This document shows positions 17,026 through 47,671 of a stretch of DNA of 64,000 nt, in pieces. Positions within the stretch are counted from its first letter, which is position 1. Each line of letters begins with the position of its first letter. Origin of the DNA: Azotobacter vinelandii CA. Lineage in GTDB: Bacteria > Pseudomonadota > Gammaproteobacteria > Pseudomonadales > Pseudomonadaceae. The stretch covers positions 1,550,001 through 1,614,000 of the forward strand of contig NC_021149.1 of NCBI RefSeq assembly GCF_000380335.1, given 5' to 3'. The position numbers and the translations under genes are program-made. The notes under the pieces were generated by a model. It had not been told where the DNA came from and searched no databases. It was given only the letters and a program-made list of their open reading frames with translations.

Positions 17026-17547
17026 ATGAATATTCGTACTGCGGGCGACATATGCGAAGTGCGTAATGGCAAAGCGTGGTATCTCGTGCAGTGCAAGCCT
17101 CGTCAGGACGAGCGTGCCGAAGACAATCTGAAGCGCCAGGGTTATGAATACTTTCGTCCACAATGCCTGCGGGAGCGCCTGATGCATGGCGCTCTGCGGG
17201 TCCAGAGCGAATCGTTGTTCCCCGGTTATCTGTTCATCCGCCTGGCTGCCGATGCCAACTGGGCTCCGCTGCGCTCGACTCGCGGGGTGAGTCGTCTGGT
17301 CAGCTTCGGCGACATGCCGCTATCGGTTAGTGACGAGTTGGTCGCCGAGCTGCAACGACGCATCGAGTCATCGCCCGAGCCAGCTCTGAAGCCTGGCGAC
17401 AGGGTACGGATCATCGCGGGAAGCTTCACGGAGTTGGATGCCATCTTCCTGGCGCTGGATGGTGAGGAGCGGGTTACGCTATTGATGAGGTTGCTCCATC
17501 GCGAGCACCGATTGAGCCTGCCTTTGGCAGACATACGCAAATACTGA
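17026..17547 (+). CDS. rfaH: RfaH/NusG-like transcription antiterminator
   Basis: 173 aa from the ATG at 17026; a GTG at 17014 in the same frame is possible and would add four residues. The NGN domain starts at KAWYLVQCKPRQDERAEDNL, followed by YEYFRPQCLRER, LFPGYLFIRLA and STRGVSRLVSFGDMPLSV. The C-terminal KOW-like part is KPGDRVRIIAGSFTELDAIF. RfaH proteins load at ops pauses and keep RNA polymerase moving through long surface-polysaccharide operons. Its place at the head of such a locus supports that role. Loading would need an ops-like element; the only partial match is discussed under rejected items. Confidence 0.85.
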   Translation: MNIRTAGDICEVRNGKAWYLVQCKPRQDERAEDNLKRQGYEYFRPQCLRERLMHGALRVQSESLFPGYLFIRLAADANWAPLRSTRGVSRLVSFGDMPLSVSDELVAELQRRIESSPEPALKPGDRVRIIAGSFTELDAIFLALDGEERVTLLMRLLHREHRLSLPLADIRKY

Positions 17548-17775: not shown

Positions 17776-18831
17776 ATGACTATTCTGGTAACAGGCAGCG
17801 CAGGCTTCATCGGGGCGAACTTTGTCCTGGACTGGCTGCACCAGCATGACGAGGCGGTTGTCAGCCTGGATAAGCTGACTTATGCCGGTAATCTGGCCAA
17901 TCTGAAAAGCCTGGAAGGCGATGACCGACATGTCTTCGTCAAGGGCGATATAGGCGATTCGAAGCTGGTCGCCGGGCTTCTGGCGGAATACCAGCCGCGG
18001 GCCGTCGTCAATTTTGCGGCGGAGTCCCATGTGGATCGCTCGATTCACGGTCCGGAAGACTTTATCCAGACCAACATCGTGGGAACCTTCCGGCTACTCG
18101 AAGCCGTACGTGTCTATCATGCTCAACTGCATGATGGTGCCGCTGCTTTCCGTTTCCTGCATGTCTCGACGGACGAAGTATACGGCTCGCTGGAGCCCAC
18201 CGACCCGGCGTTCACCGAGCGGAACCGCTACGAACCGAACAGTCCCTACTCGGCCTCCAAGGCCGCTTCTGACCATCTGGTTCGAGCCTATCACCATACT
18301 TATAAGCTGCCGGTGTTGACCACCAACTGCTCGAATAATTATGGACCGTATCATTTCCCGGAAAAGCTCATCCCGCTGATCATTCACAACGCATTGTCAG
18401 GCAAGCCCCTGCCCATTTACGGCGATGGCCAGCAAGTCCGTGACTGGCTGTACGTGAAAGACCATTGCAGCGCGGTTCGCCGGGTGCTGGAAGCGGGGAA
18501 ACTGGGTGAAACCTATAACGTCGGAGGATGGAACGAAAAGACCAACCTCGATGTGGTGCATACCCTTTGCGATATCCTCGACCAGGAGCGGCCGCGTGGC
18601 GACGGCCGGAGCTATCGCGAGCAAATCACCTTCGTCAAGGATCGTCCCGGACACGATCGTCGCTATGCCATCGACGCGACCAAGCTCGAGCGCGATCTGG
18701 GCTGGAAACCGGCGGAAACTTTCGAAAGCGGCATTCGCAAGACCGTTCGCTGGTATCTGGACAACCAGGGCTGGGTCGAAAATATCACCAGCGGTGCTTA
18801 CCGCGACTGGGTGAGCAAACACTACCAATGA
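17776..18831 (+). CDS. rmlB: dTDP-glucose 4,6-dehydratase
   Basis: Second step of dTDP-L-rhamnose synthesis. 351 aa. ATG at 17776 has AAGGA just upstream. The NAD-binding motif is [27 protein letters not shown] supplies the catalytic T/D/E residues, and [15 protein letters not shown] holds the YxxxK pair. [16 protein letters not shown] and [12 protein letters not shown] are family blocks. It opens the rmlBDAC unit, and its stop overlaps the rmlD ATG (ATGA). Confidence 0.97.
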
Positions 18832-19727
18832 AAATCCTGCTACTGGGAGCCAACGGTCAGGTTGGCTGGGAACTGCAACGGGCCCTGGCGCCGTTGGGGC
18901 GGCTGGAGATCTGCGATCGTCTCCGGGCCGATCTGGACAGGCCGGAAAGCCTGGCCGCGCTGGTCGAGCGAATTCAGCCGCAGGTCATCGTCAATGCCGC
19001 CGCCTATACCGCCGTGGACAAGGCCGAATCCGACGCGGCTCGCTCGCGTCGGGTGAACGCCGAATCGGTGGAAGTGCTGGCGGATGCCGCGCGAAGTTGC
19101 GATGCCTGGCTGGTGCATTACTCGACCGACTATGTGTTCGATGGCTGCAAAGCCGCGGCCTATACGGAAGATGACCCCGTGGGGCCGCTGAGCGTCTACG
19201 GGCAGACGAAGCTGGAGGGCGAACAAGCTATTCAGGCTTCCGGGTGCAAGCACCTGATCCTGAGAACCAGTTGGGTGTACGCCGCACGCGGCAGCAACTT
19301 CATCAAGACCATGCTGCGCCTGGCCGCCGAGCGCGAAGAACTGCGTGTGATCGCCGATCAGATCGGAGCACCGACCAGCGCCGAACTGATCGCCGATGTG
19401 AGCGCTCTGCTTTTGTATCGGTTGAGGCATGATCGGGCATTGGCCGAGCAGGCAACGGGGGTCTATCACCTGACTGCCGCCGGCGAAACCAGTTGGCATG
19501 GCTACGCGCGTTTCGTCGTGGCCAAGGCTGCCGCATTGGATATGTCACTCAAGGCGGGGCCCGACGACATCCATGCGATCGGTACCGCCGATTACCCGCT
19601 GCCGGCCCGGCGCCCGGCCAACTCCCGGCTCGATACCGGCAAACTCCGACGTACCTTCGATCTGCATCTTCCACAGTGGGAATATCACGTCGAACGCATG
19701 CTGCACGAGCTCCTCGCCAAACCATAG
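18828..19727 (+). CDS. rmlD: dTDP-4-dehydrorhamnose reductase
   Basis: Last step of dTDP-L-rhamnose synthesis, NAD(P)H dependent. 299 aa from the ATG at 18828 that overlaps rml[15 protein letters not shown] is the nucleotide-binding motif, STDYVFDG and [10 protein letters not shown] hold the catalytic Ser/Thr and YxxxK residues, and [18 protein letters not shown] is typical. The frame is open upstream, but that part lies inside rmlB and is not homologous. Confidence 0.97.
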
Positions 19728-19820: not shown

Positions 19821-20702
19821 ATGAAACGTAAAGGCATCATCCTCGCCGGTGGCTCCGGTACCCGTCTGCACCCGGCCACCCTGGCCATATCCAAACAATT
19901 GTTGCCCGTCTACGACAAGCCGATGATCTACTACCCGCTGAGCACCCTGATGCTGGCCGGTATCCGTGACATCCTGATCATCTCCACCCCGCAGGACACC
20001 CCGCGTTTCACGCAACTGCTGGGGGATGGAAGCCAGTGGGGACTCAATCTCGCCTATGCGGTGCAGCCATCCCCGGATGGCCTGGCGCAAGCGTTCCTGA
20101 TCGGCGAGGAGTTCCTCGGCAAGGCTCCGTCCGCGCTCGTGCTGGGTGACAACATTTATTACGGCCACGATTTCCAGGATCTTCTGCGCAACGCCATGGA
20201 CCGCGAGCAGGGTGCCAGCGTATTCGCTTACCACGTATACGATCCCGAGCGCTATGGGGTCGTGGAGTTCGATGCGCAAGGGAAAGCCGTCAGCCTGGAA
20301 GAGAAGCCGGCACAGCCCAAGTCCAACTATGCGGTCACCGGGTTGTATTTCTACGACCATCAGGTGGTCGATATCGCCAAGAGCATCAAGCCTTCCGCCC
20401 GCGGCGAACTGGAAATCACCGATCTCAATCGCATCTACCTGGAGCAGGGCTCGCTCTCGGTGGAAATCATGGGTCGCGGTTACGCCTGGCTGGATACCGG
20501 CACCCATGACTCGTTGCTCGAAGCCGGTCAGTTCATCGCTACCTTGGAAAGCCGCCAGGGACTGAAGGTCGCCTGTCCGGAAGAAATCGCCTTCCGGCAG
20601 AAGTGGATCGATGCCGAACAACTGGAAAGGCTTGCCGAACCCCTGTCGAAGAATGGTTATGGCAAATACCTCAAACGCATCCTGGTGGAGACGGTTTACT
20701 GA
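19821..20702 (+). CDS. rmlA: Glucose-1-phosphate thymidylyltransferase
   Basis: First step of dTDP-L-rhamnose synthesis: dTTP + glucose-1-phosphate. 293 aa. The N-terminus [19 protein letters not shown] is the nucleotide-binding signature; [32 protein letters not shown] and [19 protein letters not shown] follow. The ATG at 19821 is chosen by homology; earlier in-frame codons from 19755 are leader. It overlaps rmlC by one base (TGATG). The enzyme is usually inhibited by dTDP-rhamnose. Confidence 0.97.
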
Positions 20703-21250
20703 TGAACGCCACCCCGCTCGATATTTCCGGTCTGGTCCTTTTCGAACCCAAGGTGTTCGGCGATGACCGTGGTTTCTTCTTCGAAAGCTACAACCAGCGG
20801 CATTTCGAGGATGCCGTCGGTCGCGCGGTGAATTTCGTCCAGGACAATCATTCCCGCTCCGCGCAAGGGGTGTTGCGGGGACTGCACTACCAGTTGCCGC
20901 CCCATGCCCAAGGCAAGCTGGTGCGGGTCGTACAGGGTGAAGTGTTCGATGTCGCCGTGGATATCCGCAAGTCGTCGCCTACCTTCGGGCAGTGGGTCGG
21001 GGTGCTGCTATCGGCGGAAAACAAGCGGCAATTCTGGATTCCGGAAGGCTTCGCGCATGGTTTCGTGACGCTTTCGGAGACTGCCGAGTTCCTCTACAAG
21101 ACGACCGACTACTACGCCCCGGACAGCGAACGAAGCATTCTCTGGAACGATCCCGCATTGGCGATCGACTGGCGCGGCATCGAGGCTCCGCTGCTTTCCG
21201 GCAAGGACCAGAAGGCTCCGCTGCTCGCCAATGCCGAGGTTTTCCCATGA
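20702..21250 (+). CDS. rmlC: dTDP-4-dehydrorhamnose 3,5-epimerase
   Basis: Cupin-fold epimerase of the dTDP-L-rhamnose pathway, 182 aa. LVLFEPKVFGDDRGFFFESY, the active-site region GVLRGLHYQLPPHAQGKLVR, VFDVAVDIRKSSPTFGQWVG and FWIPEGFAHGFVTLSE are all present. It overlaps rmlA by one base upstream and wzm by 4 bases downstream (ATGA), so rml synthesis and polymer export are co-transcribed and probably translationally coupled. Confidence 0.97.
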   Translation: MNATPLDISGLVLFEPKVFGDDRGFFFESYNQRHFEDAVGRAVNFVQDNHSRSAQGVLRGLHYQLPPHAQGKLVRVVQGEVFDVAVDIRKSSPTFGQWVGVLLSAENKRQFWIPEGFAHGFVTLSETAEFLYKTTDYYAPDSERSILWNDPALAIDWRGIEAPLLSGKDQKAPLLANAEVFP

Positions 21251-22086
21251 ACCCGCATGCGGCGCAGCCGACTTCGCTGCTGGCCTTCGCACACAGCCTG
21301 TGGAGGCATCGGCTGTTGATCCGGCAAATGACCCGGCGTGAGGTGATCGGCCGCTATCAGGGGTCTTTCCTGGGCCTTGGCTGGTCCTTTCTCAACCCCT
21401 TGCTAATGCTGTGCGTCTATACCTTCGTGTTCTCGGTGGTCTTCAAGGCGCGCTGGGGTGTGGCTCCGGAGGGCGGCGAGGAAAGCAGGTCCATGTTCGC
21501 CATCGTGCTGTTCGTCGGCATGATCGTGCACACGCTGTTCGCGGAAATCCTCAACCGCGCGCCCGGACTCATCATCGGCAATGTCAATTACGTCAAGAAA
21601 GTCGTTTTTCCCCTGGAGATACTGCCGGTAGTCTCGACCGGCGCAGCGCTGTTCCATGCCCTGGTCAGCCTGATGGTCTGGCTGCTGGCCTATTGGCTGT
21701 TCATCGGCACGCCGGACTGGCAGGTACTGTTGTTTCCTGTCGTCATGTTGCCATTGGTGGTGCTGGCGCTGGGACTCGCCTGGTTTCTTGCCTCGCTGGG
21801 AGTATTCCTGCGCGACGTGGGGCAGACCGTGACGATCGTCACCACCATCATGATGTTCCTGGCGCCGGTATTCTTTCCGGTGGACAGCTTGCCGGAAGAG
21901 TTCCGTCCGCTGATCATGGCCAATCCGATCACCTTCATCATCGAGCAGGCGCGCGGTGTCCTGATCAGGGGGCAGTTGCCGGATTTCGTCGGCCTGTTCT
22001 GGTACTTTGCGGCCGCCTCGATCGTAATGTGGGCCGGCTTCGCCTGGTTCCAGAAGACCCGTAAAGGATTCTCCGATGTGCTCTGA
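21247..22086 (+). CDS. wzm: Polysaccharide ABC exporter, permease
   Basis: ABC-2 type permease of 279 aa with six predicted membrane helices. LLIRQMTRREVIGRYQGSFL and GWSFLNPLLMLCVYTFVFS are typical of Wzm/KpsM proteins. It moves a completed undecaprenol-linked glycan across the inner membrane. The ATG at 21247 overlaps rmlC; the long in-frame extension back to 20992 lies inside rmlC. The end overlaps wzt by 11 bases. The absence of wzx and wzy in the locus fits an ABC-exported polymer. Confidence 0.92.
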   Translation: MNPHAAQPTSLLAFAHSLWRHRLLIRQMTRREVIGRYQGSFLGLGWSFLNPLLMLCVYTFVFSVVFKARWGVAPEGGEESRSMFAIVLFVGMIVHTLFAEILNRAPGLIIGNVNYVKKVVFPLEILPVVSTGAALFHALVSLMVWLLAYWLFIGTPDWQVLLFPVVMLPLVVLALGLAWFLASLGVFLRDVGQTVTIVTTIMMFLAPVFFPVDSLPEEFRPLIMANPITFIIEQARGVLIRGQLPDFVGLFWYFAAASIVMWAGFAWFQKTRKGFSDVL

Positions 22087-23431
22087 TGTGGCGATCAAGG
22101 TCGAAAACCTGAGCAAATGCTTTCATATTTACGACAAGCCCCGCGACCGCCTGCTGCAGATGCTTTGCCGGGGAAGGCGACGGTTCTTTCGCGAGTTCTG
22201 GGCATTGCGGGACGTGGCATTCGACATAAAAAAGGGCGAAACGGTTGGTATCGTCGGCCGTAATGGCAGCGGCAAGTCCACGTTGCTGCAGATCATCTGC
22301 GGCACCCTGACACCCACCTCCGGCCGGGTGCGAACCGATGGGCGTGTCGCCGCCCTGCTGGAGTTGGGTTCGGGATTCAACCCCGAATTCAGTGGGCGGG
22401 AGAACGTCTACATGAATGCGGCGGTGCTGGGCCTGTCGAAAGAGGAAACCGATGCCCGCTTCGCCGAGATCGAAGCCTTTGCCGAGATCGGCGATTTCAT
22501 CGACCAGCCGGTCAAGACTTATTCCAGCGGGATGATGGTGCGGCTGGCCTTTGCGGTGGCGATCAATGTCGATCCGCAAATCCTTATCGTCGACGAAGCA
22601 TTATCGGTGGGCGACGAATTGTTCCAGCGCAAATGTTTCGCAAGGATCGAAGCCATCAAGGCCAGTGGCGCGACCATCCTTTTCGTATCGCATGCCGGCA
22701 CTACTGTCATCGAGCTTTGCGACCGTGCGATTCTGATGGATGGCGGCGACAAACTTGCCGAAGGATTGCCCAAGGCGATCATCGGCAAGTATCAGAAGCT
22801 CCTTTATGCGCCGGCGGGCAAGGTCGAGGCGATTCGTGCCGCGATCGCTGGCGATGGCCACAAGGAATCCCTGTTCGCCGAAACTTCGACCGTGTCGCCG
22901 GAAACCCTGGAGCAAGGGCGAGCCGAGCCTGAACTGGATGAATGCTTCGATCCGAATCTGCGTTCGCAAAGCGTATTGTCCTACGAGTCCCATGGGGTAC
23001 TCATCGAGGCGCCGCAAATTCTCGATCTTGCCGGCGAGCCGGTGAATTGCCTCAAGAGCGGCAAAACCTATCGCTATACCTACCGGGCGAGCTTTGCCGT
23101 CGGCGCTACCGGAGTCCGCTTCGGCATGATGATCAAGACCCTGGCTGGGGTCGAATTGGGTGGGGCGGCCAGTGCAGCCAGCCTGCAAGATGCCATTTCC
23201 CATGTGGAGAAAGGGACGGTCATCCAGGTCGAGTTCGCATTTCAGTGCAATCTCAACCCGGGCACTTACTTTCTGAATGCCGGCGTACTCGGCGCGACAG
23301 CAGAAAGCGAGACCTATCTGCATCGTTTGCTGGATGCCTGCCTGTTCCGCGTATTATCGTCGGCGGACAAAACGGCTACTGGCGCTGTGGATTTCAAGTG
23401 TGTCCCAGACTTCACTATTTCGAATGAATGA
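22076..23431 (+). CDS. wzt: Polysaccharide ABC exporter, ATPase with C-terminal extension
   Basis: 451 aa. The N-terminal nucleotide-binding domain has Walker A GRNGSGKSTLL, signature YSSGMMVRLAFAVA, Walker B ILIVDEALSVGDELF and H-loop FVSHAG. About 180 residues follow the ATPase, with the block GKTYRYTYRASFAVGATGVR. These match the shape of the Wzt carbohydrate-binding domain, which in E. coli O8/O9a reads the terminal modification of the finished chain. An exporter of this type normally needs a matching chain-capping enzyme; the next gene is the candidate. Confidence 0.92.
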   Translation: MCSDVAIKVENLSKCFHIYDKPRDRLLQMLCRGRRRFFREFWALRDVAFDIKKGETVGIVGRNGSGKSTLLQIICGTLTPTSGRVRTDGRVAALLELGSGFNPEFSGRENVYMNAAVLGLSKEETDARFAEIEAFAEIGDFIDQPVKTYSSGMMVRLAFAVAINVDPQILIVDEALSVGDELFQRKCFARIEAIKASGATILFVSHAGTTVIELCDRAILMDGGDKLAEGLPKAIIGKYQKLLYAPAGKVEAIRAAIAGDGHKESLFAETSTVSPETLEQGRAEPELDECFDPNLRSQSVLSYESHGVLIEAPQILDLAGEPVNCLKSGKTYRYTYRASFAVGATGVRFGMMIKTLAGVELGGAASAASLQDAISHVEKGTVIQVEFAFQCNLNPGTYFLNAGVLGATAESETYLHRLLDACLFRVLSSADKTATGAVDFKCVPDFTISNE

Positions 23432-23443
23432 AAGATCAGGTGT

Positions 23444-26400
23444 ATGGAGCAGAAAAATATAGTTGTCGTACTGGGCATGCATCGAAGCGGTACTTCTGTA
23501 ATCACGCGAGGTCTGCAGGCGCTGGGTGTTCAGCTTGGTACCCGCTTGATGCCGGCAGCACCCGGAAACAATGAAAAGGGTTTCTGGGAGGATATGGATG
23601 TCAATGCACTCAACATCGAGTTGCTCGCTGCCCTGGGCCAGGACTGGCATACCCTGACACCTTTGCTGCCGGAGCATTTGAACCCTTCGGTTCTCGACTC
23701 CTTCAAACTGCAAGCCGTGCAATTGTTGAGGGAAAAGTTATCCGGTGTCGAAAGTTTTGGTCTGAAGGACCCCCGGATCGCCAGGCTGCTGCCATTCTGG
23801 ACGAGCATATTTGCCCATCTGGATGTTCAGGTTCGCTATGTGGTCGCCTGCCGCCATCCTATGAGTGTGGCTCGCTCGCTGGCCAAGCGTGATGGTTTCG
23901 CCTTGGAAAAAGCCTATCAGTTATGGCTGGAACACATGCTGGCAAGCTTGGCGGGAACGCAAAATCGTCCTCGGGTCGTTGTCGACTATGACCTTCTCAT
24001 GGAAGAGCCTGCCGTTCAGTTGCAGCGGATCGCGCAAGCACTGGATCTTGAGTTCGACGCGGACAGTCAGGCTTTTGCCGAGTACAAGGAAGAATTCTTG
24101 GAGGAAGGACTCCGGCATAGCCGTTTCGCAGCGGCCGATCTGTGTCTGGACAAAGCAGCTTCTCCGCAGGTGGAGGAGTTGTACGACGCTCTGCTGCAGA
24201 TGGCCAGTGATCGGATAGCCCCCGATATACAAGAGGTAGAAGGGCTTATTGCGGCGTTGTCCGAGGAGTTACAGCGGAGTTATTCGCTGCTGCATTACAC
24301 CGATCTATGCGAGATACGGATTGGCGAATTCACCAGTCAAGTGGCTATTCAAGAAAGACAAATAGCCGATGGTAACGCGCAGGTTGATACCTTGAATCAG
24401 ACCATTGCCGAGCGCGAAGGTCAGATTCACACGCTGAATCAGTTAGTGGCAGAAAGGGATGGGCAAATTGGCGGTCTGAACGGGATTGTCGCCGAGCGCG
24501 ATGGCCAGATTCATACATTGAATCAGGTAATCTTGGAAAGGGAAGGGCAGATTGGTGACCTGAACGAGGTTATCGCCGAGGGCAACGGCCAGATCCATGC
24601 GCTGAATCAGGTAATCGCAGAAAAGGAAGAGCAGGTTGGTAGCCTGAACGGGGTTTTAGCCGAGCGCGATGGTCAAATTCGTATATTGAATCAGGTAATC
24701 GCAGAAAGGGAAGAACAGATTGACGGCTTGAATAGGATTGTCGTCGAGCGTGATGACCAGATTCATGCGTTGGATCAGGTAATCGCCGAAAGGGAAGGGC
24801 AGATTGGCGGCTTGAATAGGATTGTCGCCGAGCACAATGGCCAGATTCATGCGTTGAATCGGATAGTCTCGGAAAGGGAAGGGCAGATTGGCGGCCTGAA
24901 CGAGGTAGTTGCCGGGCGTGATAGCCATATTCAAGAGCTGAGTCGGATTGTGCATGAGCGAGATATCCAGATTGCCGCCATGCAGGAAATACAGTATGCC
25001 CTACACAACTCCAGAAGTTGGCGTATCACTGCTCCTTTGCGTCGTGCCAACCATCTGAGACGCAAGGTTGTGGACGTTAAAGCTATCGCCTGTCGCCGGC
25101 TACGAGATGAGTCTTTATCGACTCTTCTGAAAAAGACGTTGGGAATCTTGCGTCGGGAAGGACTGAATGGGCTAAGAGCGAGAATTCGCCATCAGCATTA
25201 TCTGTCGACACTAGCCCCTGCGACTCCTGCACCGCAGCTCTCACCAACTCCTCCCTCCGCGGGAAATATGACCTCCATACCTATGGCCATTGTGCGCCAT
25301 TCTGGGGGACGCTACGAATTGGCCGCTACCTCTAAAGGCTATACCTATATCGAGCCACAGCGGCCTGCCGACTTGGGAGCCCGACTCGCAATTCTCGACA
25401 TTACGCCTTTGTTCTCGATCGTGGTACCTGCCTATAACACCAGCTCAGAACTACTGGATGCCGTACTCTCTTCAGTACGGGCCCAGTGGTATCCTCACTG
25501 GGAGCTTATTTTGGTTGACGACGCCAGCCCTTCCGAAGAAACTCGGCGGGCATTGGCCGAGATAGACGATCCGAAAATCAGGGTTCTGCACCTGGAGAGC
25601 AATAAAGGTATTTCCGGTGCCACCAATGTAGGCTTGGCTGCCGCTCAAGGCGAGTTCATCGTGTTCATGGATCACGATGACGAACTAACCGTCGATTGCT
25701 TGTATGAGTTGGCATTATGCATCAATCGCGACCAGCCGGATTTTATCTATAGTGATGAGGATAAACTTACCGAGGAAGGGGAATATACCCAGCCACATTT
25801 CAAGCCGGATTGGTCTCCCGATACCATGATGAGCACCATGTTCACCTGCCATGTATCTTGCGTGCGTCGCAGTCTGTTGAGCAAAGTGGGTGAACTGCGT
25901 TCGGAGTTTGATGGCTGTCAGGATTGGGATTTTATCTTGCGTGTCGTCGAGCATACGAATCGTATAAGTCATATTCCGAAGGTTCTTTATCATTGGCGAA
26001 TAATTCCGGCTTCCGTCGCATCCGATATCTCCGCCAAGCCTTATGTACTTGAAGCGTCCCGGCGTGTTCGACTGGATGCGTTGGAGCGTCGAGGCCTCAA
26101 AGGGAGTATAGAGCCGGTAGCTCAAGTTCCAGGATATTTTCGTGTCAACTATCACCTGCAAGGTTCGCCCCTGATTTCGATTATCATTCCTAGTCGGGAT
26201 AATGGTTCGGTTCTTCGCCGTTGTCTGGATTCCATCCAGGAAAAAAGTAGCTATCGGAATTTTGAAATCATCATCCTTGATAATGGTTCTGTTGAGGCTT
26301 CGACTGTTGCTTATCTGAAGGAGTTGCAAGAAAAAGGGGTAGCGCAGATTATTCGTCATGATGCTCCATTCAATTTCTCCGAGCTTAATAATATCGGTGC

Positions 26401-26992
26401 CAGGACTGCTGGTGGCGAATTGCTGTTGTTCCTCAACGATGATACCGAAGTGCTTTGCAATGACTGGCTGGAGCGCATGGGAGGGTATGCTCAGTTAGTA
26501 CATATTGGTGCTGTAGGGGCCAAATTGCTTTACCCGGATAGCTCTGAAATCCAACATGCGGGTGTCCTCAATTTGGCGAATGGCCCTGTTCATGCGTTCC
26601 TGCGTCATCATAGTGAGCGCCCAGGCTATTTTATGCGTAATTTGTTGGAGTACAACTGGCTGGCAGTCACTGGCGCCTGCTTGATGATGGAGGCTTATAA
26701 GTTCAATGAGTTGGGGGGCTTCGATGAAACCCTGCCGGTTGCTTATAACGATATTGAGTTGTGTATAAGAGCTGTTGAGAAGGGCTATTATAATGTGGTG
26801 TGTCAATCAGTGACTCTGATCCATCATGAGTCGGTCAGTCGAGGCCTTGATCATGTCGATCCTGTAAAATTCGCACGTTTACAGAGAGAGCTTCGGCGTC
26901 TTTATGATATGCATCCCATGTTTTTTCAATATGATCCTTTCTATAATCCGAACTTGCATCCAAATGGGATTAATTTTGAGGTGGCTTTATAA
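23444..26992 (+). CDS. Sulfotransferase-like / coiled-coil repeat / dual GT2 glycosyltransferase fusion
   Basis: 1182-aa multidomain protein. Residues 5-250 look like a PAPS-dependent sulfotransferase: the 5'-phosphosulfate loop GMHRSGTSVITRGLQALGV (11-29) and the 3'-phosphate motif RYVVACRHPMSVARSL (131-146). Residues 321-516 are fourteen tandem 14-residue units of the form IAEREGQIHTLNQV / VAERDGQIGGLNRI, each two heptads long, predicting a rigid coiled coil. NSRSWRITAPLRR follows. The first GT2 domain begins near 656 (FSIVVPAYN, VDDASPS, FMDHDDE). The second begins near 908 (LISIIIPSRDNGS, FLNDDTEVL). It lies 12 bp after wzt and overlaps the next gene (TAATG). A role in extending and capping the O-chain, with the coil as ruler, is inferred from WbdD-type systems. 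The sugar donor and acceptor are unknown. Confidence 0.85.
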   Translation: MEQKNIVVVLGMHRSGTSVITRGLQALGVQLGTRLMPAAPGNNEKGFWEDMDVNALNIELLAALGQDWHTLTPLLPEHLNPSVLDSFKLQAVQLLREKLSGVESFGLKDPRIARLLPFWTSIFAHLDVQVRYVVACRHPMSVARSLAKRDGFALEKAYQLWLEHMLASLAGTQNRPRVVVDYDLLMEEPAVQLQRIAQALDLEFDADSQAFAEYKEEFLEEGLRHSRFAAADLCLDKAASPQVEELYDALLQMASDRIAPDIQEVEGLIAALSEELQRSYSLLHYTDLCEIRIGEFTSQVAIQERQIADGNAQVDTLNQTIAEREGQIHTLNQLVAERDGQIGGLNGIVAERDGQIHTLNQVILEREGQIGDLNEVIAEGNGQIHALNQVIAEKEEQVGSLNGVLAERDGQIRILNQVIAEREEQIDGLNRIVVERDDQIHALDQVIAEREGQIGGLNRIVAEHNGQIHALNRIVSEREGQIGGLNEVVAGRDSHIQELSRIVHERDIQIAAMQEIQYALHNSRSWRITAPLRRANHLRRKVVDVKAIACRRLRDESLSTLLKKTLGILRREGLNGLRARIRHQHYLSTLAPATPAPQLSPTPPSAGNMTSIPMAIVRHSGGRYELAATSKGYTYIEPQRPADLGARLAILDITPLFSIVVPAYNTSSELLDAVLSSVRAQWYPHWELILVDDASPSEETRRALAEIDDPKIRVLHLESNKGISGATNVGLAAAQGEFIVFMDHDDELTVDCLYELALCINRDQPDFIYSDEDKLTEEGEYTQPHFKPDWSPDTMMSTMFTCHVSCVRRSLLSKVGELRSEFDGCQDWDFILRVVEHTNRISHIPKVLYHWRIIPASVASDISAKPYVLEASRRVRLDALERRGLKGSIEPVAQVPGYFRVNYHLQGSPLISIIIPSRDNGSVLRRCLDSIQEKSSYRNFEIIILDNGSVEASTVAYLKELQEKGVAQIIRHDAPFNFSELNNIGARTAGGELLLFLNDDTEVLCNDWLERMGGYAQLVHIGAVGAKLLYPDSSEIQHAGVLNLANGPVHAFLRHHSERPGYFMRNLLEYNWLAVTGACLMMEAYKFNELGGFDETLPVAYNDIELCIRAVEKGYYNVVCQSVTLIHHESVSRGLDHVDPVKFARLQRELRRLYDMHPMFFQYDPFYNPNLHPNGINFEVAL
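24404..24991 (+). repeat. Tandem 42-bp coding repeats (14 units)
   Basis: Fourteen in-frame units of 42 bp encode the coiled coil. Odd and even units differ at the end of the motif (HTLNQ / HALNQ versus GGLNR / GDLNE), so the higher-order period is 84 bp. Neighbouring units are very similar at DNA level (for example GGGCAGATTGGCGGCTTGAA near 24797 and 24886), so copy number could change by slippage or recombination without a frameshift. Confidence 0.9.
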
Positions 26993-28830
26993 TGGAGGAT
27001 ATTGCCAATGATTATTGCGATATGCCCAGCTTGGCTGCTCTACGCTTCTCGCTTGACGTTGCCGATGATCTTCAGCAACTGATTACAAGTGCTACAGCGA
27101 TCTCCTTCGATTTTTTTGACACTCTTTTCGTTCGCCCTCTTGCCCATCCCGAGGATGCTTTCGATGTCCTTGGCTGTCAATTCGATATCCCGGATTTCCG
27201 GGCTATGCGGCGTGCAGCGCAGGCCGAGGCCTTTCGCCGGATGCTGGCTTCCGGGCGAAAAGAAATCACGCTTGAGAATATCTATGCCTGTTTTGCAGAA
27301 ACAAGCACTCCCGCCGATGTATTGATGCGTGCTGAGTATGAGTTGGAGCGGGCATTGATAGAGCCAAACCCGGAATTGTTTCCGCTGTTCCGTATGCTAC
27401 TCGACAGTGGCAAGCCTGTGGTCATTACCTCGGATATGTATCTGTCTGTCGACTTCTTTCGTGACGTACTTAGGCCACATGGGCTGGAGCACGTGCCGCT
27501 GTTCATATCTGCGGATTGCAATGCGACCAAGCGCGATGCCGGTGAGCTCTTTGACATTCTAGCAAGTAGATTGGGCGTACGCACAAAGGAAATTTTGCAT
27601 ATCGGTGATAATGAAATGGCCGATGTGCAGCGGCCGCGTGAGAAAGGACTGATGGCTTTCCATTATCAGTCAAAACACTTACGCAGCATCAAGAAAGGGA
27701 GGTCACTCGCAGCCTCCATCGGTCATGGCCTGTTACAGACACGAGCTCGTGATATCGAGCCGAACTCCTATGTGGAACTCGGTTTTCTTTATGGTGGAGC
27801 TGCAATTCTTGGGTTTCTCGAGTGGATCAAGGAGCGTACCCATCAGGATGGTATCGATCATGTACTTTTCTTGTCTCGCGATGGCTATTCGCTTGAGCGT
27901 ATAGCCCGGGCTCAGGAGGATTGCGGATTACCCGATTTTTGTTATTTCCTGGGCTCGCGCACAGCTTATACGCTGGCCTCCATTACAGCCGATAATTTCA
28001 GTCAGTTTTTCCCATTTTTGCTCTCGGGAGGAGACGGCTTAGCACCATATGAGCTTCTTGAGCGCATTGGCGTACAGCCGCCATCGCAGCAGATCATGGC
28101 AGAGTTAGGGTTGGGAACTGATGTGCGCGTATGCCCGGCTCTTTATGAGAAAGTTTGTGGCTTCCTATACGGTTATCGTTGGGAAATTCTGAAAGTTTGC
28201 CAGCGTAACCGTCGAGCATTATATCAATATCTCAAACAAGTCGGTCTACAGCCAGGAAGTCGGGTAGCTTTGGTGGATGTAGGATGGAGTGGCACAACCC
28301 AGGAAGCATTTGAGCAAGCGATTCGTCCTCTGATGAGTCTGGAGGTATTCGGATATTATTTTTGCTTGGCGGATACACCCGAACGCCTCCGGCGCGAGCA
28401 GACTCAACGCATGTCGGCTATGGTTACGGCTGCCAATACTTCCGCTGCAACTGTTGCCGGAATTTATGCTAACCGCGTAGCAGTGGAGCTGTTTTTCTCT
28501 GCGCCGCATCACTCTGTAATTGGTTTGCAAGTCGGTACAAAAGCTATTGAGCCAGTTCTGGATAGTGGGCGTGGTGATACTGGCAATATGCAGCAGATCG
28601 CTAGAGAGGTAAGCAAAGGTATAGAACTTTATGCCGAGCAATATGCCGCAATACAGCGTAGGTTGAACTTTAAAGAATCTCCGATGCAGATTATTCTTCC
28701 TTTGATTGAATTGATTGCACATGAAGATAAAGCCACTCATGATTTGTTGAATAAGATCAAGAATTTTGATGCGTGGGGGAGTTCACGCAATCATAACCTG
28801 AGTCTGACTGACTATTTATCTTCCGCTTGA
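26992..28830 (+). CDS. HAD-superfamily hydrolase with large C-terminal domain
   Basis: 612 aa. Residues about 37-225 form a HAD phosphatase-like domain: DFFDTLFVRP with the two catalytic aspartates (40 and 43), VVITSDMYLSVDFF (motif II) and LHIGDNEMADV (motif IV). The rest, about 380 residues with FLSRDGYSLERI and VALVDVGWSGTTQEAFEQ, is a second domain that I cannot name. Proteins of this shape (COG5610-like) occur in polysaccharide loci, where their substrate is unknown. Its ATG overlaps the stop of the preceding gene, so the two are translated together. GC content is lower than in the housekeeping block. Confidence 0.75.
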   Translation: MEDIANDYCDMPSLAALRFSLDVADDLQQLITSATAISFDFFDTLFVRPLAHPEDAFDVLGCQFDIPDFRAMRRAAQAEAFRRMLASGRKEITLENIYACFAETSTPADVLMRAEYELERALIEPNPELFPLFRMLLDSGKPVVITSDMYLSVDFFRDVLRPHGLEHVPLFISADCNATKRDAGELFDILASRLGVRTKEILHIGDNEMADVQRPREKGLMAFHYQSKHLRSIKKGRSLAASIGHGLLQTRARDIEPNSYVELGFLYGGAAILGFLEWIKERTHQDGIDHVLFLSRDGYSLERIARAQEDCGLPDFCYFLGSRTAYTLASITADNFSQFFPFLLSGGDGLAPYELLERIGVQPPSQQIMAELGLGTDVRVCPALYEKVCGFLYGYRWEILKVCQRNRRALYQYLKQVGLQPGSRVALVDVGWSGTTQEAFEQAIRPLMSLEVFGYYFCLADTPERLRREQTQRMSAMVTAANTSAATVAGIYANRVAVELFFSAPHHSVIGLQVGTKAIEPVLDSGRGDTGNMQQIAREVSKGIELYAEQYAAIQRRLNFKESPMQIILPLIELIAHEDKATHDLLNKIKNFDAWGSSRNHNLSLTDYLSSA

Positions 28831-28966: not shown

Positions 28967-31162
28967 ATGAAAAAAAAGTATTTATATTTGCTGGCTATTC
29001 TATGTTGTGGGGTAATTTATGTCTCACAATGCTGGTCGCCTTCATCGTATGGTTTGGTACTGCGCCAAATTGGTGTTGAGGATACTGGTATTGTTTTTGG
29101 TGAGCCGCGGCCCATTCGCTCTGATGAGTGGGGGGTAGTAACACCCTTTACCCAGGCAACCGTCAATAACGATTTCGAGCGCTATAATAAGACATCCTTT
29201 TATGGCGAGGATTTGCGAATAAATTATGGGCTGCCGATCTTCGATTGGGGGTTGTTGTTCAAGCCTAGCATGTGGGGGTATTTGATTCTCGCCCCTGAAT
29301 ATGCCTATTCGCTGCACTGGTTCGTGATGCTGGCCGCCTTTATCGTCGGCTATGCATTGTTGTTCGAAAAGCTGGGGCTCGGACGCGCGCAGGCATTGCT
29401 CCTTTCGGTCTGCCTCTATTTCACCGGCTTTACTCAATTCTGGTGGAACGAGAAGGGGCCGATCTTTGCGATATTCCCTTGGGTAGTGCTGGTTCTACTT
29501 TCCCGCTTTTCCGTTGCCGCTCGGCTCGGACTTTTCTACTGGTTGGGAACAACCTGGCTGCTGACCAATTTCTATCCCCCTCTTATTATATCCTTGGCTT
29601 TTGTCGGTGTACTTCTCGTACTGGCTCTCGGCCGCGACTGGTTAACTCCCCTGAGGCTTCTGCCGTTGATGCTCGCTTCTGCCGCTGCGTCGATAACGGC
29701 GGTTCTATATTTGAAGGACTATTTGCTCAGGTCGGCCTCGACGATTTATCCAGGTATGCGTAGCATGGTAGGTGGTTCGGTGCCCTGGCAGGAGTGGTGG
29801 ACGCAGTTTTTTCCCTTCGCAACCTTCGATTGGCGTTATGAAAGTGTTATTACTGGGCAGAATATTTGTGAGGTTGGTGTAGCCGGTTCGGCTATCATTC
29901 TCATGGTAATTTGTTTTTTGAATTACCAAAAACTTCGTGACGTAGTTTTCGAGAGAGGGACGGTCCGCTTTTCTCTCATCGTGCTCGGGGTCGGCTATCT
30001 CCTGATGACGGCCTGGATGCTGTTGCCGCTGCCTGCCTGGCTGGGACGTTTGCTGCTGTGGAACAGTGTCCAGCCGGAGCGCATGGAATATGCGGCCGGT
30101 TTCGTTCTGCTGATGTTCGTGGCTATCCTGGGCAAGGTAGTCGGAGTGCGGGTAACCACCGGGCGATTCGCCGTCTATCTGGTACTGGTCGTTTCGGGCT
30201 GGCTGCTGATCAAGGGCGACTCCTTCAGGTTCGATGCCGGTACGATGCTGCGCCTCAGTAATGATCTGGTCGTCATACCCGTGCTCGCCACAGTTCTATT
30301 TTTCAACCGCCGGTGGCGAATTGATCAATACACGATATTGATCATTGCTGCGGCGATCAGCAGCACTATAGTGCTGTTCGGCTTCAATCCAATCCAGTCG
30401 TCGAAGAGTTTCTTTGTGAGACACGATACGAATTTCATCAAAGAGCTCGATTCGGAAGTCCAGGGGACGCTCGGCTCACTGGTATTTAGTGACATGCCTG
30501 GAGCCACGTTGAATGGTCTGGGCTATGCTTCCGTATCGCATGTTACACCTATACCTATGCTGGAGTTCTGGCGCAAAAAATATTCGGATATGAAGGAAGA
30601 GGATTTTTTAGCTATTTTCAACCGATATGCGCATATTCGTTTGATTCCGGAGAAAGCACCGAGGTTGCTTCAGGCTGATGCCATTGGCGTTCCGATGGCT
30701 GATTTCCGGAGAGACTGGGTTGAGATATCCGTTTCTACTACTGGTGATGCAGCCCCTTTATGGCTTCAACAAAGCCAAAAGATGTCTGGTGAAATTTTCC
30801 CAGATCGCTCTGGCGTCGTTCAGATGATTAGTGTTTTCATTGGCAATGGAAATAATAGCTCGGATGGAGTATTGAGTCTAAAAGTATGTGGAGCAGCGGG
30901 CTGCACCGATGCTTCCCGGAAGCTTGCTGAATCAATCGACAATGCTTTCCTGCGTTTCAATCTTACTTCTCCAATCTCTGTGGAAAAGGATCAACCGGTC
31001 CGCTATGAGTTTTATTGGGAGCATGGACAGAAACCGGTAGCCTTCTGGACCTATCCCAAAGTATCCGGGCAGGTCACTATCCAAGTAAATGGTGTACCAG
31101 GCTCTTTGGTGCCGCGATTCCGGCTCAGATATAATTCCGATGAGAGTCTTTCCGCAAAATGA
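28967..31162 (+). CDS. Polytopic membrane protein, probable Gtr-type glycosyltransferase
   Basis: 731 aa from the ATG at 28967; a TTG at 28952 is possible but less likely. The N-terminus MKKKYLYLLAILCCGVIYVS is a membrane anchor. Roughly ten further hydrophobic helices run to about residue 480, then a soluble, probably periplasmic, C-terminal region of about 240 residues. The first loop has SDEWGVVTPFTQATVNNDF, in the place where GT-C enzymes carry acidic catalytic residues. It is followed at once by GtrB-like and GtrA-like genes, so it is best read as the specific transferase of a three-component glycan-decorating cassette. The sugar is unknown. Overlaps the next frame by 4 bases. Confidence 0.65.
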   Translation: MKKKYLYLLAILCCGVIYVSQCWSPSSYGLVLRQIGVEDTGIVFGEPRPIRSDEWGVVTPFTQATVNNDFERYNKTSFYGEDLRINYGLPIFDWGLLFKPSMWGYLILAPEYAYSLHWFVMLAAFIVGYALLFEKLGLGRAQALLLSVCLYFTGFTQFWWNEKGPIFAIFPWVVLVLLSRFSVAARLGLFYWLGTTWLLTNFYPPLIISLAFVGVLLVLALGRDWLTPLRLLPLMLASAAASITAVLYLKDYLLRSASTIYPGMRSMVGGSVPWQEWWTQFFPFATFDWRYESVITGQNICEVGVAGSAIILMVICFLNYQKLRDVVFERGTVRFSLIVLGVGYLLMTAWMLLPLPAWLGRLLLWNSVQPERMEYAAGFVLLMFVAILGKVVGVRVTTGRFAVYLVLVVSGWLLIKGDSFRFDAGTMLRLSNDLVVIPVLATVLFFNRRWRIDQYTILIIAAAISSTIVLFGFNPIQSSKSFFVRHDTNFIKELDSEVQGTLGSLVFSDMPGATLNGLGYASVSHVTPIPMLEFWRKKYSDMKEEDFLAIFNRYAHIRLIPEKAPRLLQADAIGVPMADFRRDWVEISVSTTGDAAPLWLQQSQKMSGEIFPDRSGVVQMISVFIGNGNNSSDGVLSLKVCGAAGCTDASRKLAESIDNAFLRFNLTSPISVEKDQPVRYEFYWEHGQKPVAFWTYPKVSGQVTIQVNGVPGSLVPRFRLRYNSDESLSAK

Positions 31163-31173
31163 GGGGATTGGGA

Positions 31174-32142
31174 ATGCTGTATCGCGGTCAACGGATTGCC
31201 TTGACAGTTCCTTGCTACAACGAAGAGGTAGCGATTGGTTCTGTCATCAGAGAGTTTCGTGCCGCCATGCCGGAACTCGAAATCTATGTATTCGACAATA
31301 ACTCTTCGGACAAGACTGCGGAGGTGGCAAAGGCGGAAGGGGCAAGCGTCATCTTCGTACCTTTGAAAGGCAAGGGTAATGTGGTGAGACGCATGTTTGC
31401 CGATGTCGAGGCGGATGTCTATGTGATGGTGGACGGCGATGCCACGTATGACGCCAGGTCGGTCGTCAGGCTGGTCGACAAATTGCTGGACGAACGGCTC
31501 GACATGGTGGTCGGCTGCAGGAAGGTCGATATGTCCACTGCCGGGCAGGCTTATCGAAATGGCCATCAGTGGGGAAACCGCATGCTGACACAGAGTGTCG
31601 TGCGTACCTTCGGCGGGGGCTTCACGGACATGCTCTCGGGATATCGGGCCTTTTCGCGCCGCTACGCCAAATCCTTTCCGGCATTGTCCCAGGGTTTCGA
31701 GACGGAAACGGAGCTGACCGTGCATGCCCTAGAGTTGCGGATGCCCTACGGCGAGATCATGACGCCCTATGGGGCGCGGCCGGAGGGTTCGGTCAGCAAG
31801 CTGTCCACCTATCGGGATGGCTGGCGCATTCTGACGACCATCGGGCGGCTTTATGTCAGTGAGCGTCCATTGGCTTTCTTCGGTATTTGTGCGGCCGTTC
31901 TGGCAGCAGTCTCGGTGCTGATTTCGCTTCCCTTGCTGGACGAGTATTTGCGAGCCGGAGTCGTACCTCGACTACCTACTGCCATATTGTCGGCCTCCAT
32001 GATGGTGTCGGCATTGCTGGCATTTTCGTGTGGCCTGATTCTGGACAATGTGACTCGCGGTCGGCACGAAATGAAACGCTTGTCCTATCTCGCGATACCG
32101 GCACCCAGCGTACAGGACAGGCCCCATGAAAATCCTTCGTGA
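31174..32142 (+). CDS. GtrB-like polyprenyl-phosphate glycosyltransferase
   Basis: GT2 enzyme expected to load a sugar onto undecaprenyl phosphate on the cytoplasmic side. The frame also has an ATG at 31159 overlapping the previous stop, but GAGGGG at 31161-31166 fits the ATG at 31174 better (322 aa). Motifs: IALTVPCYNEEVAIGSVI, VFDNNSSDKT, the DxD-like MVDGDATYDA and the FGGGFTDMLSGYRAFSRRY block. Two C-terminal membrane helices (LAFFGICAAVLAAVSVLISL and ILSASMMVSALLAFSCGLIL) match the GtrB shape. It overlaps gtrA by 17 bases. Confidence 0.85.
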   Translation: MLYRGQRIALTVPCYNEEVAIGSVIREFRAAMPELEIYVFDNNSSDKTAEVAKAEGASVIFVPLKGKGNVVRRMFADVEADVYVMVDGDATYDARSVVRLVDKLLDERLDMVVGCRKVDMSTAGQAYRNGHQWGNRMLTQSVVRTFGGGFTDMLSGYRAFSRRYAKSFPALSQGFETETELTVHALELRMPYGEIMTPYGARPEGSVSKLSTYRDGWRILTTIGRLYVSERPLAFFGICAAVLAAVSVLISLPLLDEYLRAGVVPRLPTAILSASMMVSALLAFSCGLILDNVTRGRHEMKRLSYLAIPAPSVQDRPHENPS

Positions 32143-32518
32143 GATCGTATTGTTCGGTGTGAGTGGCGCTTTCGGCTTCCTTGTCGACACTGCGGTCCTA
32201 TATATGCTCAAAGGCCCGATCGGGCCTTTTTATGGGCGGATTTTTTCGTTCCTGGCCGCAGTGCTTACCACCTGGCTGTTGAATCGATACTTCACGTTTC
32301 GCGAGCGGAAATCCGGTTTGTCGACGAGGCGAGAGTTCGTGGCCTATCTGCTGCTGATGCTCATAGGCGGAGGGGTCAACTATGGAGTCTATGCATGGTT
32401 GATCGTTTCCAGTCCGTTCGCGAGCCAGTATCCGGTCGTGGGGGTAGCTGCAGGCAGTCTGGCCGGAATGTTCGTCAATCTGGTCAATTCGCGTTATCTG
32501 CTCTATCGATTTTGCTAG
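32126..32518 (+). CDS. GtrA-family membrane protein (probable lipid-linked sugar flippase)
   Basis: 130 aa with four predicted membrane helices. The family blocks FGVSGAFGFLVDTAVLYML, WLLNRYFTFRER and GMFVNLVNSRYLLYRF are clear. GtrA proteins are thought to flip undecaprenyl-phosphate sugars so that a Gtr enzyme can use them in the periplasm. It is the last gene of the cassette and of the plus-strand locus. A terminator-like hairpin lies inside its coding sequence (separate entry). Confidence 0.9.
   Translation: MKILREIVLFGVSGAFGFLVDTAVLYMLKGPIGPFYGRIFSFLAAVLTTWLLNRYFTFRERKSGLSTRREFVAYLLLMLIGGGVNYGVYAWLIVSSPFASQYPVVGVAAGSLAGMFVNLVNSRYLLYRFC
32210..32231 (+). terminator. Terminator-like hairpin inside gtrA
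   Basis: AAAGGCCCGATCGGGCCTTT is a perfect 20-bp palindrome at 32210-32229 and is followed by two more T residues. It lies about 85 bases into the gtrA coding sequence. It has the form of an intrinsic terminator and could lower gtrA expression, or act only as coding sequence. Whether it works is not known. Confidence 0.4.
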
Positions 32519-32676: not shown

Positions 32677-33720
32677 CTATTGCTGCAGATATCGTGGTTT
32701 CCGTATTCGCGCCATTAACCGTTTGCGCAAGTTTTCTAGAGGTCGTTCGGCTAGATAGTGGCCGGCGGCTCCTGCGGCGATGGACAGGAAAATACCGATC
32801 AGAAAGGTAGCCATGTGCCCTGGCCAATGCCCGGCAAGCGTCATCAGTATCAGCCAGTGGAACAGGTAGGTGGAGTAGCTGAAGATACCGAGAAAGGCCA
32901 GTGGGCGACTGCAGAGCAGGCGGCCGGCGAGGCCATGGCCTTCCAGTAGCAAGCCAGTGAAGCATGCCCACATCAGGCCAAGATACAGATGCTTATCCAG
33001 CAGGTCATCGCTCAACGGTGTGTTGAATAGCCACAGGCGGCTGCCGGGTAAAGCCAGTAGCAGGATGAGCAAAGTGAATAGAGCGAAAGGCGTGGCCAGG
33101 CGTATGCGGGGCAGGCTGCGCAGGTATGGCAGCAGCAGGGCTGCGAGAATTCCGAACAGGAACGAAGGCAAATACCAGCGAGTATCCGCCGAGTTTTCCG
33201 GTGTTTGCCAGTAAGGCCAGACGGATTGCTGCAGAACCAGCAAGGTGGTGCCGGCGAGCAGTATGGCGGCGTTGCCGAGGCGGCGTTTCAAGCATAGCCC
33301 GGCCCAAGCCAAAGGAGGGAGTAGCAAGTAGAACTTGAACTCCACCGGAATGGTCCAGAGATGGATAAAACCTTGTTCGAAAGTCAGAGCGGCATGCAAT
33401 TGGTCGGTATTTTGAATGCCCATGCCAGCCCAGTAGTAGAGCAGGCATGCCAGGGTGAACAGCGGCAGGATGCGCAGGATGCGACCAAGAGCGTAATCCA
33501 GCAAGCTGACGGCAGTGAAACCGCGCTGTTGCAGGCGAAGAGTGAGCAGGAAGGCGCTGAGCACGAAGAACAGCCAGACCCCGTACTTGCCGCCTCCTCG
33601 TAGTAAGGGAAACGCCTCGGGCCAGCAGAAGCTTATGCCGTGCATGACCAGAACGATCAAGCAGGCAAGACCGCGGATGCCGTCGGCAGCGGGTAAGGGC
33701 TGAGGGTGCGGATTGGGCAT
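32677..33720 (-). CDS. Acyltransferase-3 family membrane protein (OafA-like O-acyltransferase)
   Basis: 347 aa with about ten membrane helices, facing the polysaccharide locus. The N-terminal signature GIRGLACLIVLVMHGISF holds the conserved Arg and His of the family; GKYGVWLFFVLSAFLLTLRL and SYSTYLFHWLILM are further typical blocks. Such proteins O-acetylate surface glycans, so the product may modify the polymer made next door; the acceptor is inferred. The ATG at 33720 has no clear ribosome site upstream. The 158-bp gap between it and gtrA has no obvious terminator. Confidence 0.85.
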   Translation of the reverse strand: MPNPHPQPLPAADGIRGLACLIVLVMHGISFCWPEAFPLLRGGGKYGVWLFFVLSAFLLTLRLQQRGFTAVSLLDYALGRILRILPLFTLACLLYYWAGMGIQNTDQLHAALTFEQGFIHLWTIPVEFKFYLLLPPLAWAGLCLKRRLGNAAILLAGTTLLVLQQSVWPYWQTPENSADTRWYLPSFLFGILAALLLPYLRSLPRIRLATPFALFTLLILLLALPGSRLWLFNTPLSDDLLDKHLYLGLMWACFTGLLLEGHGLAGRLLCSRPLAFLGIFSYSTYLFHWLILMTLAGHWPGHMATFLIGIFLSIAAGAAGHYLAERPLENLRKRLMARIRKPRYLQQ

Positions 33721-47077: not shown

Positions 47078-47671
47078 ATGAGTACCAACCTGATGTCCCA
47101 GGCGCTGGCTGTGGATGCCGCGCGAAGGGCACGGGCGAAAGGGCAGAAGCCAGTCGCCCTGTGGCTGACCGGCCTGAGTGGGGCGGGTAAATCGACCATT
47201 GCCAATGCGCTCGAACTGGCGCTGGTCGAACGCGGACGGCATACCTATCTGCTGGACGGCGACAATGTGCGCATGGGGCTGTGTCGCGATCTCGGATTCA
47301 GCGATGCCGACCGCGAAGAAAACATACGCCGTGTCGCCGAAGTGGCCCACCTGTTCGTGGATGCCGGTCTGATCGTGATCAGCGCTTTCATTTCCCCGTT
47401 CCGGCGGGATCGGGCCATCGCCCGGGAAGTCATCGGCAACGGAGCCTTCATCGAGATCTTCGTGGACACGCCGCTGGCCGAGTGCGAGCGTCGCGATCCC
47501 AAGGGGTTGTATGGCAAGGCTCGCCAGGGGTTGATCAAGAATTTCACGGGCATCGATTCGGCCTACGAGCCGCCGGTCGATCCGCACATCCGCATCGATA
47601 CCCTGAAGGACGATTTGCCGACGGCGGTGGCCCGGATACTGGACTATCTGGACAAGTGGGAGAGGGCATGA
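47078..47671 (+). CDS. cysC: Adenylylsulfate (APS) kinase
   Basis: Phosphorylates APS to PAPS, the sulfate donor. 197 aa. Start ATG at 47078 behind a strong GAGGAGGT at 47061-47068. P-loop [72 protein letters not shown]. It lacks a fused sulfurylase (CysN) domain and no cysD or cysN is nearby. Pseudomonads usually assimilate sulfate through APS directly, so a lone cysC suggests PAPS made for sulfation. Overlaps the next gene by 4 bases. Confidence 0.95.

Follow-up and report, generated by a model that had tools for sequence, protein, structure and literature searches.

What ends the growth of a polysaccharide chain when a protein that extends it begins with a sulfotransferase domain? This question is raised by a protein of 1182 amino acids (aa) in Azotobacter vinelandii CA, which is encoded from an ATG start on the forward strand at 23444 to 26992 of the window, that is, of the whole 64,000-nucleotide stretch analyzed here (NC_021149.1, positions 1,550,001 to 1,614,000). 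The protein joins a sulfotransferase domain, a coiled coil, and two glycosyltransferase family 2 (GT2) domains, and its gene lies directly behind wzm and wzt, the genes of an ABC exporter for O-polysaccharide. A sequence-only reading of the window had proposed a sulfate as the stop signal, with the coil as a ruler and Wzt as the reader of the cap. Judging from domain order and from the comparison of related loci, we consider it quite likely that a sulfate caps the non-reducing end, that the coil sets when this happens, and that Wzt reads the cap.

Domain composition of the 1182-aa protein

The proposed chain terminator occupies residues 2 to 286 (23447 to 24301, forward strand) and carries the motifs GMHRSGTS at residue 11, KDPR at residue 108, and RHPMSVARSL at residue 137. 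Taken on its own, the Pfam support for this domain was thin; Sulfotransfer_3 matched residues 7 to 205 of the full protein with 27.6 bits (cut-off, 27) and the cut-out domain with 31.7 bits. A phmmer search of the Protein Data Bank (PDB) with the single domain returned gamma-tubulin complex chains only, which are chance matches. A 43-row sulfotransferase profile instead gave 30 PDB matches at E values up to 0.1, and 28 of them are named sulfotransferases. For an AlphaFold2 model built from three sequences (predicted local distance difference test [pLDDT], 78; predicted template modeling score [pTM], 0.82), the predicted fold most resembled tyrosylprotein sulfotransferases (best match, 8w5z; E, 3.8e-7; template modeling [TM] score, about 0.5). 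Its 40 fold matches at E values up to 0.001 comprised 32 sulfotransferases and 8 PFKFB kinases, which have the same P-loop fold. The fold match and the 43-row profile bear the domain out.

Invariant in the 43 relatives were G10, R13, G15, T16, S17, N42, G45, E48, K107, R136, S144, and R148 (numbering of the cut-out domain, which is that of the protein minus one). The 5′ loop (RSGT, residues 14 to 18) and the 3′ motif (RxPxxxxxS, residues 137 to 145) for 3′-phosphoadenosine 5′-phosphosulfate (PAPS) are both present, and we take these two elements to be PAPS-binding signatures. Pfam assigned Sulfotransfer_3 in 31 of the 43 relatives. At E values up to 0.001, it reported no sulfotransferase in L008 and L016 (related loci are designated by L numbers), where the assignment was made by BLAST to the window domain, with 43% and 32% identity, respectively. 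The two stretches matched by PF00535 (E, 1.1e-49) correspond to GT2 domain 1 (residues 648 to 892; 25385 to 26119), with a DHDD motif at residue 743, and GT2 domain 2 (residues 904 to 1130; 26153 to 26833), with an NDD motif at residue 998, both on the forward strand. The sequence-only reading had placed PAPS-type sulfotransferase motifs, a coiled coil, and two GT2 domains in one polypeptide; motifs, Pfam, profile, and a predicted fold whose matches are chiefly sulfotransferases all agree with this.

The terminator domain lies far from the polymerase part (residues 648 to 1130). Between them, residues 304 to 523 (24353 to 25012, forward strand) form a single unbroken heptad-like stretch of about 220 residues, a candidate coiled-coil ruler built of 14-aa units. 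The self-identity of the coil was 0.45, 0.54, 0.44, and 0.46 at lags of 14, 28, 42, and 56, respectively, and shuffled sequences (n = 1,000) reached at most 0.17 at any lag. The 14-aa unit had been recognized before; the length of 196 residues given with it was too short. The DNA under the coil holds an 84-bp tandem array (24407 to 24933; 6.3 copies), and the coil could therefore lengthen or shorten by steps of 28 residues. Across the relatives, coils were scored by a crude measure, a coil-like run at least 50 residues long. Such a run was found in 28 of the 43 sulfotransferase proteins, 27 of which had it beyond the sulfotransferase domain, and among controls in Wzm (0/33), RmlA (0/28), Wzt-like (6/38), HAD-like (1/17), GtrB-like (0/3), and GT (5/51) proteins.

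A chance N-terminal fusion or a frame error was considered and rejected, because the fusion recurs in L016 and its pieces are combined differently in L008 and others. No second copy of the protein was found in four genomes of the genus, and a search of plasmids gave no place covering 80% of it.

Exchange of modules among related loci

One scan of named genomes yielded 19 loci. At the threshold used, both GT modules were present in 22 proteins from 21 loci, the window included, and the GT pairs of the window's relatives showed 49 to 69% identity. The N-terminal domain on this pair was Methyltransf_12 in L006, L009, and L012 (in the last, Methyltransf_11 was stronger) and Methyltransf_24 in L010 and L011. 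In L020 (8099 to 12112; Amantichitinum), it was a Capsule_synth domain of the type that transfers 3-deoxy-d-manno-oct-2-ulosonic acid (Kdo), which suggests a Kdo-capped version. A sulfotransferase stands on the GT pair in the window and again in L016, and in L008 it is encoded by a gene separate from the GT pair. In a tree of the 22 GT pairs, the sulfotransferase label required 4 changes (shuffled mean, 5.4; 50 of 500 shuffles as low); GT pairs do not cluster by the presence of a sulfotransferase. The closest GT pairs to that of the window were those of L006, which is of the methyltransferase type, and L008 (path, 0.66 each).

The sulfotransferase-coil part was found fused to WbsX-GT2-GT4 domains (L104 and L086), to GT2 (L087), to GT2 and GT4 types (L088), and to RgpF and a HAD part (L092), and it occurred without any GT in L084 and L105. 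From these domain orders, it appears to behave as a portable terminator. In three loci (L085, 8697 to 12671; L092, 9371 to 13411, with a middle region of the RgpF type; and L093, 6357 to 10304), the sulfotransferase was joined via a middle region to a ribofuranosyltransferase-like HAD part, which is a different polymerase combination. We also observed, in L111 (2540 to 8518), a 1992-aa protein with a ribofuranosyltransferase-like part and two GT2-like stretches that adjoins a 550-aa sulfotransferase gene.

With a three-row profile (E up to 1e-10), sulfotransferase matches were obtained in 47 of 293 genomes of the order and in 38 of 369 of the class, counts that include short single-domain sulfotransferases and, both times, the window's genome. 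Longer stretches, several of which end at contig ends, were taken for the best 20 of each list after the window's own. In 39 of these best 40 loci, the exception being L112, the start of the sulfotransferase domain falls among residues 1 to 70. A Wzt-like ATPase was present in the stretch of 21 of the 40, and 9 of these 21 had a Wzt C-terminal extension (L084, L086, L087, L088, L099, L100, L104, L105, and L119).

The wzt gene of the window (22076 to 23431, forward strand) encodes an ATPase (Pfam ABC_tran; about 22076 to 22831) and a C-terminal carbohydrate-binding domain (about 22946 to 23425; Pfam Wzt_C, 104.5 bits); its extension and its position directly before the gene for the 1182-aa protein had both been pointed out correctly. 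The top 17 PDB matches of a model of this domain (pLDDT, 82) were all Wzt C-terminal domain structures. Pfam Wzt_C matched 63 places in the 293 genomes of the order. Sequences were used for 49 of them, the other 14 being low scoring save for a 77-bit fragment in genome G065. A profile made from three domains (window, L008, and L016) was used to score 66 Wzt tails, of which 63 are distinct. Twelve distinct domains were adjacent to a sulfotransferase gene, that is, within 2 kb, and nine of these were held out of the profile. Six of the nine (L104, L086, L087, L084, L105, and L088) scored 179 to 233 bits, and none of the 51 nonadjacent domains scored above 102 bits. That top nonadjacent score belonged to L168, with a sulfotransferase 3.4 kb off on the other strand; L141 (84 bits) has one on its own strand at a distance of about 14 kb, and the genomes of L142 (81 bits) and L157 (76 bits) each have theirs on another contig.

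A tree was calculated from 59 Wzt C-terminal domains (three duplicates and L007, L021, L023, and L155 were dropped). One supported clade held 11 of the 12 adjacent rows and one other row, L168, and the label changed 3 times, compared to 11.1 times for shuffled labels, with none of 500 shuffles as low. L119 and L099 formed long branches. Wzt travels with the sulfotransferase, which the GT modules do not. L008 contains a 164-aa gene (4330 to 4824) for the Wzt C-terminal domain alone, a carbohydrate-binding module (CBM), 8 bp from the sulfotransferase-coil gene. No Wzt nucleotide-binding domain (NBD) was found in this 22-kb locus, which stems from a 7.6-Mb metagenome bin with a possible assembly error, and a Wzt-like 463-aa frame lies elsewhere in that genome. 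In studied systems, the Wzt C-terminal domain reads the cap, is required for export, and can work in trans (PMC9445017). L008 may be a natural trans case of the reading domain.

Proposed mechanism and alternatives

The sequence-only reading had assigned all chain extension to one polypeptide, which did not hold: an O7-type repeat also needs the ribofuranosyltransferase encoded by the next gene (26992 to 28830, forward strand). This protein, a phosphoribosyl transferase with a HAD phosphatase and the second half of an O7-type polymerase, matched the ribofuranosyl transferase of PDB entry 7shg (E, 5.9e-13) and Bcs3 (E, 1.4e-16) in phmmer searches, and its gene is a kept neighbor of the GT pair in related loci. 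A plain rhamnan polymerase was rejected because this gene comes next.

We propose that the operon builds a polysaccharide of rhamnose and ribofuranose, resembling that of Klebsiella pneumoniae O7, for export by Wzm/Wzt. At the membrane end of the coil, the two GT2 domains would add the rhamnoses and the neighboring enzyme the ribofuranose. Once the non-reducing end has grown out to the distal coil tip, the sulfotransferase would move a sulfate from PAPS to the terminal rhamnose, putatively to O-3 by analogy with O7. Sulfation would end growth, and the Wzt C-terminal domain would bind the sulfated end and license export. The comparison of loci has added strong support to the proposal of a sulfate terminator, a coil ruler, and reading by Wzt, because this GT module bears terminator-type domains of other chemistry in the position of the sulfotransferase and because Wzt co-travels. 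Beyond domain identities, gene order, and homologies, module swapping and the co-travel of Wzt are established. The sulfation and its site, the ruler function with its effect on chain length, and the reading of sulfate by Wzt are what we infer.

Several observations weigh against this mechanism. By the crude measure, no long coil separates the sulfotransferase from the GT in L016, which shares the fusion and is the nearest full-length relative; the longest coil-like run of the L016 protein (42 residues) lies inside the sulfotransferase domain, and its residues 312 to 389 gave a coil-type Pfam match below threshold only. The type of N-terminal domain is known by scan for 8 of the 19 named loci only. 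Three of the nine held-out adjacent Wzt domains scored low (L099, 59 bits; L119, 28 bits; L167, 28 bits). A tree of Wzt NBDs (58 rows) clusters by label too (5 changes, compared to 10.2 in shuffles; 0 of 500 as low), and therefore the whole wzt gene co-travels with the sulfotransferase. Such co-inheritance explains part of the Wzt signal, and reading by the C-terminal domain is not separable from it. The Wzt C-terminal domain is absent from 12 of the 21 loci with a Wzt-like ATPase (L091, L093, L096, L098, L101, L107, L108, L109, L110, L117, L121, and L122), which tells against a universal cap-reading partner. Finally, the O-chain of Aeromonas salmonicida has no known sulfate despite a sulfotransferase-domain gene beside wzt (PMC4483657).

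It is unlikely that the sulfotransferase decorates internal or many residues during growth, with the coil as a spacer or oligomerization device that does no measuring. Marine bacteria are known to have sulfated capsular polysaccharides together with sulfotransferase genes (PMC11641403, PMC11766843), and the frequency of Wzt without a reading domain (12 of 21) would fit this explanation; however, the sulfotransferase domain takes the position of proven terminators, on the coil end remote from the GT pair (PMC11231755), and the neighboring Wzt has a co-travelling Wzt_C domain. We have even less confidence in the idea that sulfation ends the chains and Wzt does not read the sulfate, be it that wzt and the sulfotransferase gene are co-inherited or that Wzt reads terminal sugars alone. 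The C-terminal-domain clade is tighter than that of the NBDs (3 versus 5 changes), L008 pairs a CBM-only gene with a sulfotransferase gene in a locus where no Wzt NBD was found, and studied Wzt C-terminal domains read the cap (PMC9445017); these points stand against the label clustering of the NBD tree and the many sulfotransferase loci whose Wzt lacks the C-terminal domain, both of which a nonreading Wzt would accommodate. That the N-terminal domain is catalytically dead or acts on another substrate, with termination done otherwise, is very improbable, since a Pfam score near the cut-off (27.6 versus 27 bits) and PFKFB kinases among the fold matches (8 of 40) are set against invariant PAPS-binding signature residues in 43 relatives, 28 of 30 profile matches and 32 of 40 fold matches to sulfotransferases, and a genome that can make PAPS.

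Beyond the window, we lean toward the view that sulfate has to be added to methyl, (methyl)phosphate, and Kdo as a signal that ends the chains of ABC-exported bacterial polysaccharides. The sulfate would be delivered by a portable unit of sulfotransferase and coil, which has its counterpart in a Wzt reading domain, has been passed among different polymerases, and occurs across Gammaproteobacteria-like genomes. If this is true, sulfate is one more of the few groups that end chains; the Wzt reader, the polymerase, and the terminator can each be swapped as a module; and about one sulfate per chain, easily missed by repeat-unit analysis, is predicted on the surface of many species. Matched terminator-reader pairs make the recognition of different caps by Wzt directly testable.

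Surrounding genes and comparison with known systems

The cluster lies on the forward strand and is headed by a NusG/RfaH-like regulator (17026 to 17547; Pfam NusG, E 4e-20). The dTDP-rhamnose supply is encoded by rmlB (17776 to 18831), rmlD (18828 to 19727), and rmlA (19821 to 20702), each matching an NCBIfam equivalog over cut-off, and by rmlC (20702 to 21250), which resembles rmlC-placed open reading frames in related loci. The permease gene wzm (21247 to 22086; Pfam ABC2_membrane) follows. Behind the ribofuranosyltransferase gene, Pfam identified a DUF7657 membrane protein (28967 to 31162), a GtrB-like GT2 (31159 to 32142), and a GtrA-like protein (32126 to 32518), whose probable function is side-chain glycosylation outside the cytoplasm. 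The GtrB-like gene is 58.8% identical to one in L010, which is Gluconacetobacter diazotrophicus PA1 5. In G. diazotrophicus PAL5, the O7 backbone bears glucose as its side chain, and the ORF6 and ORF7 genes of the O7 cluster have homologues there (PMC11231755). Because PAL5 has that chain and L010 shares the GtrB-like gene with the window, the polysaccharide is likely an O7-like chain bearing a side-chain sugar. On the opposite strand just past the cluster, an acyltransferase family 3 gene (32677 to 33720) could acetylate the polysaccharide.

A stand-alone adenosine 5′-phosphosulfate (APS) kinase (CysC; 47078 to 47671, forward strand), which gave the strongest of the genome's four APS_kinase matches, is encoded outside the operon. 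Its gene follows that of a type II secretion ATPase, 20 kb downstream of the operon, and the enzyme is a possible source of PAPS for the sulfotransferase. For the Wzy_C family (ligase or polymerase), the genome gave two matches, and for NifH it gave three strong ones, in keeping with Azotobacter. A search for a WecA/WbpL-type initiator among Glycos_transf_4 proteins gave none; the only protein of that family in the genome reads as MraY and adjoins a MurF-like frame, both named by eye. A second polysaccharide-like group (50047 to 55591) comprises a GT4-type protein, a Bac_transf sugar transferase, and an ABC transporter, and the sugar transferase (51684 to 53063) might start the chain.

A sulfate terminator is likely new to the literature. 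None is described among the literature matches listed, from a search mostly outside subscription papers, and the sequence-only reading knew of no described sulfate-capped ABC-exported O-antigen of this build. Other uses of sulfotransferases have been reported (PMC3071791, PMC10269572, PMC13171606). In A. salmonicida, the sulfotransferase-domain gene ORF19 of wbsalmo adjoins wzt, as in the window, and the O-antigen is ABC exported; however, ORF19 is a stand-alone protein of 216 aa, and a capsule-type domain is found there on a large WbbB-type protein. The authors leave the function of ORF19 open (PMC4483657).

In domain order and in the adjoining wzm/wzt with Wzt_C, the window shows the coiled-coil terminator/ruler layout of the WbdD, O7 ORF6, and WbbB kind. 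WbbB of K. pneumoniae O12 and Raoultella terrigena is likewise a single polypeptide with a terminator, a coil, and two GT modules, but its terminator is of the Kdo type and its GTs belong to other families. In WbdD of Escherichia coli O9a, a coil serving as a ruler carries the terminator at its tip, and the cap is read by the Wzt C-terminal domain (PMC3482155, PMC11231755). Unlike the window, this system has methyltransferase-kinase chemistry and a polymerase that is a separate protein. The split relatives L084 and L105, in which no GT is attached to the sulfotransferase-coil part, are similar to WbdD in layout.

The closest likeness rests on the published description of K. pneumoniae O7 and on loci of the L006/L009/L010 type. 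ORF6 of O7 consists of a methyltransferase-kinase, a coil, and two GT2 domains, of which the first (DXDD) adds two rhamnoses onto ribofuranose and the second (NXD) contributes the third rhamnose. The ribofuranose is attached by ORF7, and the phosphate or methylphosphate is placed on O-3 of the terminal rhamnose, the N-terminal position of ORF6 being that of a proven methylphosphate terminator (PMC11231755). The window lacks an ORF3-like adapter rhamnosyltransferase between rmlC and wzm (the genome elsewhere was not searched). Both clusters contain rml and wzm/wzt, and both arrange an N-terminal terminator, a coil, and two GT2 domains (DXDD and NXD) ahead of a ribofuranosyltransferase; the terminator of O7 is a methyltransferase-kinase that makes a methylphosphate cap, whereas that of the window is a sulfotransferase.

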